Source: Hyphomonadaceae bacterium (GTDB lineage: Bacteria > Pseudomonadota > Alphaproteobacteria > Caulobacterales > Hyphomonadaceae). From it: a DNA stretch of 64,000 nt. A program made the position numbers and the translations under genes. The notes under the pieces were generated by a model. The model was not told the DNA's origin and searched no databases. It saw only the letters and a list, made by a program, of their open reading frames with translations. This document shows, piece by piece, positions 55,164 to 58,333 of this stretch (positions within the stretch are counted from its first letter, which is position 1; every line of letters starts with the position of its first letter). The stretch covers positions 1 through 64,000 of the forward strand of contig JAUYPV010000074.1 in NCBI GenBank assembly GCA_030697555.1, in the 5' to 3' direction.

Positions 55164-56736
<1,573 letters not shown>

Positions 56737-56782
56737 GGCGGCGACTGAACGAAATCGGGGCAGTCGGGGTGAGGTAAGTCAG

Positions 56783-57979
56783 ATGTTCGTTTTCATCGCC
56801 CATGCCGAGGCCGACCAGACGGCTGCGGACGATCTGAAGGCTTTCCTGAAGTCGCGCGGGCTGGTGGTCGAAACCGAGACGGGCGCCAAGGGCTTTCGCC
56901 ACCTGCAGCCATCCGACGTCGTGGTCGCGCTGTGGTCGCAGAAGAGCGTCTTCGCCGCGCATCGCATGCAGATTGAGCGGCGCATGCTGGAGGCGTGGGA
57001 GGACGAGCGGCTCGTTCTCGTCAAGCTGGATCATGCGTTCCTGCCGGTCGGGCTCCGCGACTTGCCGGCGGTCGATGCGAGTTTCGAGACGGGGCGCCAG
57101 CTCAGCGTATGGCCGCAGGTGGAGCGCGCGGCGCGCGAGGCGATGAACCGGGCGCTGGTATCGAGGCAAAGCCAGTCCGGCGCTCAGTCTTCGGGGTCGG
57201 GCGCCCCGCCTGCGCTTGGTGAAAAGATACTGCCCGCACCGTCCGTGGCCGACCGGCCTTCGCCGGGGGGGTTCAACGGCGGAGTTTCGCGGGAAAGGAC
57301 TGCGCCCGCGCCAGCTGCAGCGAAACGCGGATCGATCCTGCCGACCCTGTTCCTGATCATCGCGGCCGGCGCGCTTGGCTGGGCCGGATGGGAAGTCTTT
57401 CTGCGTCCGGAGTCGACGCTGCTGCTCACCAACCTGGCGTATGGCGTGGCAGGGCTCGGCGTTATCCTGCTGCTCTGGATCTTCGCCCAGGCGCTTCGCC
57501 CCGCGCCCAAGCCGAAAGGCGCCGCAAAGCGGGCGGAGGCAGCAGCGCCACCGCCGCCCGCCGCCGCCCCGGCGCCACAGCCGCTCGCAACCGCCGTGTT
57601 CATCTCCTACGCCCACGCGGACTCCGGCGCTGTCGAGCCGGTCGTGAAGATCGTCGAGCAGAGCGGACGCGAGGTCTGGATCGACAAGGGCGGCATCCAG
57701 GCCGGCGAGGGCTGGGCCGGGGAAATCGTCCGCGCGATCAAGGGCGCCAAGAGCGTCGTCGTGATGTGCTCCTCGCACGCCTTCGAAAGCGACCACATCA
57801 AGCGCGAAGTCTATCTGGCGGACCGCTACAAGAAGCCGATGTTTCCCGTCTTCCTCGAAGCCGCGAAGATGCCGGAGGATTTCGAATACTTCTTCGCCGG
57901 CGTGCAATGGCTTGAGCTGTTTCGCCTGTCAGAGGCCGACCGGCCGGGCGCCATCACCAAGGCGCTGGCGACAGCCTGA
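56783..57979 (+). CDS. Membrane protein with two TIR-like domains
   Basis: A 398-residue protein. The C-terminal TIR domain (about 270-395) shows VFISYAHADSG, EVWIDKGGIQAGEGWAGEIVRAI, KSVVVMCSSHAF and KREVYLADRYKKPMFPVFLE with the conserved Glu (about E342) of TIR NADases. The N-terminal 1-125 aligns with the same pattern (FVFIAHAEADQ, SDVVVALWSQKS, IERRM with E65, ERLVLVKLD) but is about ten residues shorter around the BB loop/alpha-B region, so it may be catalytically dead. Between them lie a Pro/Ser linker and two membrane helices (about 184-206 and 212-238), placing both TIR domains in the cytosol. It is 46 nt past guaB and 21 nt before DUF3088. Its role is unknown; NAD+ cleavage or signalling is inferred. 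Confidence 0.85.
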   Translation: MFVFIAHAEADQTAADDLKAFLKSRGLVVETETGAKGFRHLQPSDVVVALWSQKSVFAAHRMQIERRMLEAWEDERLVLVKLDHAFLPVGLRDLPAVDASFETGRQLSVWPQVERAAREAMNRALVSRQSQSGAQSSGSGAPPALGEKILPAPSVADRPSPGGFNGGVSRERTAPAPAAAKRGSILPTLFLIIAAGALGWAGWEVFLRPESTLLLTNLAYGVAGLGVILLLWIFAQALRPAPKPKGAAKRAEAAAPPPPAAAPAPQPLATAVFISYAHADSGAVEPVVKIVEQSGREVWIDKGGIQAGEGWAGEIVRAIKGAKSVVVMCSSHAFESDHIKREVYLADRYKKPMFPVFLEAAKMPEDFEYFFAGVQWLELFRLSEADRPGAITKALATA

Positions 57980-58000: not shown

Positions 58001-58333
58001 ATGAAAGACCAACTTTTTATCCTCAAGGCCCCGTTCACCGACGGGCCGTTCGACTGGTACTGCAATGACTGCGCGACCATGGAAGGCGCGCTGCTCGCCA
58101 ATCCGCACTGGAATGACAGGATCGACGTGCGCCGGATCGGCTTCCCGCGTCCGCGCCAAGAAGTGATCGAGCTGGTGGGCGAGGAGAACCAGGGCCTGCC
58201 CATGCTGATCATGGATATCGAAGGCGCCCCCGGCGATGCTGTGCGCATCGGCAAGTATGCCGTGCTGAAGGACATACGCGCCATCGGCCGCGCGCTGGCG
58301 CATCGTCACGGCGGCGTAGGTCCACACCCGTGA
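58001..58333 (+). CDS. DUF3088 family thioredoxin-like protein
   Basis: A 110-residue protein with FDWYCNDCATMEGALLANP near residue 18, a CxxC within a thioredoxin-like fold, and FPRPRQEVIELVGEENQGLPMLI. This matches DUF3088 by recollection. No function is assigned. It follows the TIR gene by 21 nt and overlaps the MAPEG gene (GTGA), so these three could be co-transcribed with guaB. Confidence 0.82.
   Translation: MKDQLFILKAPFTDGPFDWYCNDCATMEGALLANPHWNDRIDVRRIGFPRPRQEVIELVGEENQGLPMLIMDIEGAPGDAVRIGKYAVLKDIRAIGRALAHRHGGVGPHP

Follow-up and report, generated by a model that had tools for sequence, protein, structure and literature searches.

What does a protein with two TIR-like domains and a membrane hairpin do beside guaB, the gene for IMP dehydrogenase? 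The question is raised by a gene in the window, a 64,000-nucleotide stretch of a Hyphomonadaceae contig (JAUYPV010000074.1), whose product had been proposed in an earlier note to be an active NADase kept in check by a degenerate partner and perhaps a membrane-based stress or phage sensor. A literature search, in which coverage of subscription journals was thin, found no account of such a double-TIR family. The proposal was followed up by computational analysis of the gene, its relatives and their genomic surroundings.

Domains of the double-TIR protein

The gene lies on the same strand as guaB, and no terminator-like site was found in the 46 bp separating the two (Table 1). An antisense open frame of 418 aa (window 56651-57907, minus strand) overlaps most of the gene and resembles the shadow frames of GC-rich DNA. 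The window genome holds at least six further TIR matches, or seven when the double-TIR gene is counted.

Table 1. Coordinates of the double-TIR gene, its parts and neighbours, and of one relative; positions are those of the window unless a locus is named.
Feature	Position	Strand	Basis or remark
Double-TIR membrane protein gene	56783..57979	+	ORF with ATG start, 398 aa; TIR_2 in both halves; related genes
N-terminal TIR-like half, residues 1-130	56783..57172	+	Pfam TIR_2, AlphaFold model
Proline/alanine-rich linker including membrane hairpin	57173..57589	+	Sequence
Hydrophobic helix 1, residues 189-207	57347..57403	+	KD19 mean 1.83
Hydrophobic helix 2, residues 213-231	57419..57475	+	KD19 mean 2.12
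C-terminal TIR_2 domain, residues 270-398	57590..57976	+	Pfam, structure-profile matches, Foldseek
Glu342 codon, putative catalytic residue	57806..57808	+	Glu in 31/31 members
guaB (IMP dehydrogenase), upstream	55186..56736	+	Name assigned from sequence by eye
DUF3088 gene, downstream	58001..58333	+	Pfam
Cytochrome c-bearing member (CP051229)	L037 7869-9533 / L040 4654-6318		Domain complete, between two membrane helices

The protein scored 97.8 bits against Pfam TIR_2 (PF13676). The claim that both ends are TIR-like was confirmed when the halves were searched separately, as each exceeded the cut-off of 28 bits. The C half reached 75.2 bits, and the N half passed by a narrow margin over residues 3-102 (29.9 bits, E 9e-7). 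The N half alone had zero matches in NCBIfam or PADLOC, and its profile recovered no solved structure by sequence, the best E being 0.11. The C-domain profile matched Cat1, AbTIR and SARM1 at 8e-11 to 5e-9 (AbTIR, 4.8e-9; SARM1, 5e-9) and PdTIR at 1.1e-8. The related claim that the halves align with each other did not hold. Direct comparison gave no convincing similarity (BLASTP E 0.22; hhalign probability 9.8%), each half resembling TIR on its own. The N half is shortened around the BB loop and helix B, as had been noted from the sequence: in the AlphaFold models, 12 residues lie between strands B and C in the N half versus 19 in the C half, and 100 N-half residues span 115 TIR_2 positions versus 111 residues for 111 positions in the C half.

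Structure prediction of the two halves supported a TIR fold for the C half and was equivocal for the N half. The AlphaFold model built from a five-row alignment was usable in the N half (pLDDT 55-83 in 10-residue blocks), and comparison by VIA matched it to the TIR domain of Mal/TIRAP (Z 12.2) and to a receiver domain (Z 12.5), a tie that does not tell the two folds apart. Because receiver domains match this model equally, the identification of the N half as TIR rests on its sequence profile. Confidence was low for the full-length model (mean pLDDT 55; 35-59 in the C half). Foldseek gave three matches to it at E ≤0.001, led by an RpiR isomerase domain and followed by the TIR domains of MyD88 and TcpB. 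The C half was therefore modelled alone. At a pLDDT of only 66.6, 28 of the 30 Foldseek matches at E ≤0.001 were TIR chains, and comparison of this model by VIA gave a tie between the nucleoside hydrolase DNPH1 (10.8) and TIR (10.2).

The family and its distribution

Related genomes with the same double architecture belong to two families within the window's order, answering the call for such a search. In the window's own family (f1), 22 of 105 genomes were matched by the N half; 20 of these carry members, and the matches in the remaining two (G075 and G078) read as single-TIR proteins and were not counted. A profile search of the order matched 61 of 398 genomes, comprising 18 in f1, 39 of the 60 genomes in a second family (f3), three of them weakly, and four in family f5. 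The f5 matches were weak (E 1.9e-7 to 5.6e-6; open frames of 579-749 aa) and were not counted as members. Among 385 genomes drawn from the class, the window's own was the sole match, and the other 384 gave none. The only named records with relatives were a Hyphomonadaceae MAG, a Hyphomonas MAG and an uncultured alphaproteobacterium. Genus g23 has the N half in 28 of its 30 genomes; the remaining two are 57% and 65% complete. In 8 of the 28 the whole double-TIR gene was read through, and the other 20 are known from the N-half profile.

Thirty-one members were aligned, 17 of the 20 from f1 and 14 of 39 matched in f3. The alignment omits the copies interrupted in G006, G011 and G123 and the frame-broken end of G023 and, from f3, three weak or contig-end matches (G134, G229 and G304) and 22 whose wider regions lay outside the sequences fetched. 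A midpoint-rooted tree contained three supported groups, corresponding to genera g4 and g5, to genera g1 (that of the window), g6, g7 and g10, and to f3. We infer inheritance within clades, with the gene lost from some lineages and moved to new sites in others; transfer may also have brought gains. The four interrupted copies (G006, G011, G023 and G123) indicate that the gene can be lost.

Constraint on the two halves was compared by simple Nei-Gojobori pN/pS in six pairs, the more distant of which are partly saturated for synonymous change, and without a housekeeping control. The N-half and C-half ratios were 0.04 and 0.04, 0.15 and 0.11, 0.15 and 0.12, and 0.34 and 0.24 in four pairs of relatives, and 0.22 and 0.32, and 0.29 and 0.31, between the window protein and two relatives. 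Both halves are under purifying selection, and the N half is about as constrained as the C half. Thus, the N half is maintained. The linker was counted in two pairs of relatives (pN/pS 0.45 and 0.27) and was the least constrained part.

Active-site residues and the variable middle

Ser275, Asp301, Ser336, Glu342, Tyr344 and Tyr349 are invariant in the 31 aligned members. The Glu expected in the C-terminal copy is therefore kept throughout the alignment; it lies in helix C and aligns with the Glu of PdTIR and the Glu of AbTIR. Three equivalences with AbTIR were mapped by us from alignments (Ser275 with S140, Asp301 with D167 and Glu342 with E208), and, according to PMC11374754, altering any of these AbTIR residues inhibits its NADase. 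The C domain thus resembles the bacterial TIR NADases and SARM1 in keeping Ser, Asp and Glu. It differs from them in two respects: the chain adds a shortened second TIR and a membrane linker, and the Trp of the WxxxE motif is replaced at position 338 in all 31 members (His in 21, including the window protein, Asn in 10 and Trp in 0). In addition, Arg occupies the position of R151, a residue also needed in AbTIR, in 0 of 31 members. PMC11374754 cites the WxxxE Trp as required for cyclic products in AbTIR and describes it as dispensable in TcpC. Since the Trp is dispensable in TcpC, its loss does not decide NADase activity.

In the N half, Glu65 of the window protein sits near the catalytic place. 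This position holds Glu in 20 of the 31 aligned members and Thr in 11, all of the latter from g4 and g5. Because the Glu is kept in 20 members, the N half is possibly not inactive everywhere.

Single-TIR proteins of the same order provided a further comparison (loci L009-L029; n = 21, 19 scorable). They are 24-37% identical to the double-TIR protein over the C domain, to which the match is confined. Glu is kept in 19/19, and the WxxxE Trp is present in 7/19; ten of the 12 without it have Gln, Asn, Asp or His in its place. As Glu is kept despite the replaced Trp in these ten relatives, the pairing may belong to an active subgroup. Separately, a Trp at place 311, in helix B, was observed in 9 of the 12 relatives without the WxxxE Trp and in 0 of the 7 with it, the two never occurring together. 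The window protein itself has Trp at place 311 and lacks the WxxxE Trp. An exchange of Trp between the two places in the single-TIR relatives is possible, judging from these alignments.

These residues bear on whether the protein is an enzyme at all. A non-enzymatic scaffold, in which both TIRs would act by TIR-TIR contact alone and organise other TIR proteins or membrane partners, would fit the missing WxxxE Trp (31/31), the lack of Arg at the R151 place, the loss of much of the N-half BB-loop region and the six or more other TIR matches in the window genome. We consider this alternative doubtful, since the invariance of Glu342, Asp301, Ser275 and Ser336 in 31 members from two families exceeds what a scaffold needs, and since all 19 scored single-TIR relatives keep the Glu, including the ten with Gln, Asn, Asp or His for Trp.

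Between the two domains, KD hydropathy, a rough method, detected two hydrophobic segments separated by a turn of five residues. Lys and Arg lie mostly outside this turn, and both halves are therefore predicted to be cytosolic, in agreement with the hairpin topology first proposed. Two hydrophobic helices were found in 27 of the 31 members, one in a single member at the threshold used and none in three. Because three members lack helices, membrane sensing is not a function common to all. Nor is the membrane obligatory for the family.

The part between the helices varies. It consists of the five-residue turn in the window protein and of a conserved loop of 32-40 residues in genus g23. In a single genome, that of Hyphomonas sp. 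ih12 (G023, CP051229), it is a 205-residue loop holding a class I cytochrome c. The insert contains CQMCH and a later Met, matched a Paracoccus cytochrome c at E 9e-21 and is in frame with the flanking parts on both sides. Searched alone, it scored 22.4 bits against a cut-off of 21.3 for Pfam Cytochrom_C, and it fell under the cut-off on the longer protein. The end of this gene shifts frame, and the record, which derives from a MAG, is to be taken with caution.

Genomic sites and proposed function

The seven copies in g1, g7 and g10 all occupy the guaB-rsmB interval, three of them ≤125 bp and four 529-1164 bp after guaB. The gene is missing from this place in nine of the 14 g1 genomes with guaB; the next gene lies ≤122 bp away in five of these and 429-822 bp away in four, and the N-domain profile had no match in the four longer gaps. 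Together with the interrupted copies, this absence indicates that the gene is dispensable in the window's genus. In g4 and g5, 12 of 12 copies follow the enolase gene (eno), with pdhA downstream in 11. Among the g5 enolase loci (30 fetched of 41 found), 10 have the gene, 16 have eno followed by ftsB and 4 have neither arrangement. In f3, an enoyl-CoA hydratase gene follows in 10 of the 11 loci listed, as assigned by sequence and eye, with Pfam on one. The sites are clade-specific and lie among housekeeping genes.

Two side observations concern these surroundings. At f3 loci L091-L107, inspection by eye suggests that genes for a DUF3667 protein (identified by Pfam in L092) and for carboxylases (by Pfam in L095) recur beside the copies, and the surroundings seem to resemble a leucine-degradation-type cluster. 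In G034 (g6), a shorter protein combining an N-half-like domain with a single helix is encoded between guaB and rsmB (L105 5733-6293, minus strand), and the double-TIR gene is located away from that interval.

Many of the bacterial TIR NADases that have been studied defend against phage, and the hairpin might accordingly sense phage damage and the C-terminal TIR deplete NAD+ in an abortive infection response. Among PADLOC models, those for TIR defence proteins hit the C domain over the TIR part (best 6.5e-11), and occurrence is patchy in the window's genus and in g5. The protein resembles ThsB of Thoeris in exceeding the cut-off of Pfam ThsB_TIR (26.5 versus 21.2). It differs in having two TIR halves and helices, in its far higher TIR_2 score and in the lack of a ThsA model match among the nine neighbours checked with PADLOC. 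The type III Thoeris model ThcB4 (NCBIfam) scored under its cut-off (11.6 versus 220 bits). For the TIR-SAVED proteins of CBASS, Pfam found no SAVED domain in the chain, and the PADLOC SAVED_TIR model was matched only over positions 14-88 of 404, its TIR part. No defence gene was recognised among the nine neighbours; PADLOC matched mad2 models to the rlmE and rsmB products and QueC to the guaA product, which look like cross-matches of housekeeping enzymes. No match to the double-TIR family was found in phage, plasmid or IMG/VR collections, and of the 17 stretches that fitted a pattern in one of these searches, 0 were relatives. A mobile defence island is therefore unsupported. With these results, the clade-specific housekeeping sites and the N half in 28/30 g23 genomes, the suggested phage-sensor role found no contextual support. 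We regard anti-phage abortive infection as unlikely, with some probability left to it since presence in the window's genus is patchy.

The speculative link to NAD+ use by guaB fared worst: a stress or cell-death regulator coupled to purine/NAD metabolism through guaB, favoured by the 46-bp same-strand spacing without a terminator-like site and by the guaB-rsmB position of all seven copies in three genera, is highly improbable, and guaB was rejected as functional partner because other clades place the gene by eno or enoyl-CoA hydratase. Further points against the link are that four of the seven copies lie far enough from guaB to leave room for another gene and that nine of 14 genomes of the window's genus have guaB without the gene.

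The best reading of the data, which we hold tentatively, is that of an NAD-cleaving TIR that is tethered to the membrane and restrained by a pseudo-TIR, a resident chromosomal signalling protein; the earlier idea, an active NADase kept in check by a degenerate partner, is plausible as a hypothesis. The C-terminal TIR would be a probable NAD+-cleaving enzyme. Since His or Asn replaces the WxxxE Trp, its product is more likely to be linear ADP-ribose than a cyclic form. The N-terminal half, having lost much of the BB-loop/helix-B region, would be a pseudo-enzyme and built-in partner that probably keeps the C-terminal TIR inactive, whether within one chain or through dimerisation. Both domains would be tethered by the helices to the cytosolic side of the membrane, and the outer part, whether short turn, conserved loop or cytochrome c, may tune release, such that an envelope or redox change would trigger NAD+ cleavage. 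Partial parallels are described in PMC13142454: in Dictyostelium, a predicted N-terminal membrane helix tames the toxic NADase TIR of TirC, and TirE carries two diverged tandem TIR domains. Unlike the double-TIR protein, both are eukaryotic, TirC has a single helix and TirE has RCC1 repeats, and neither has the TIR-helix-helix-TIR order.

The restrained, tethered NADase is favoured by the C-domain residues invariant in 31/31, the shortened and constrained N half, helices in 27/31, the heme c domain in one member and the N half in 28/30 g23 genomes. Counted against it are the Trp absent in 31/31, the R151 place without Arg, the N-half Glu kept in 20/31, the three of 31 members without helices, the interrupted copies, the absence at 9/14 guaB loci, the occurrence of cytochrome c in one genome and the tie of the N-half fold with receiver domains.

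Toll-like receptors place a sensor outside the membrane and a TIR inside. They serve as a working analogy only, as they have a single span, an LRR ectodomain and one TIR, unlike the double-TIR protein. By extension, the family might be TIR receptors with an exchangeable extracytoplasmic sensor, in which periplasmic redox or respiratory state controls cytosolic NAD+ cleavage as resident physiology and not mobile phage defence; we think this improbable.

Bacterial TIR enzymes have been studied mostly as mobile anti-phage genes. A gene that is near-universal in one genus (by its N half), located at fixed places in metabolic clusters and maintained by purifying selection would suggest that TIR chemistry can serve a resident role. 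With its shortened partner TIR, the protein offers a one-chain system in which to study the restraint of TIR assembly, and the cytochrome c variant opens a possible connection between respiration and NAD+ cleavage to direct test.
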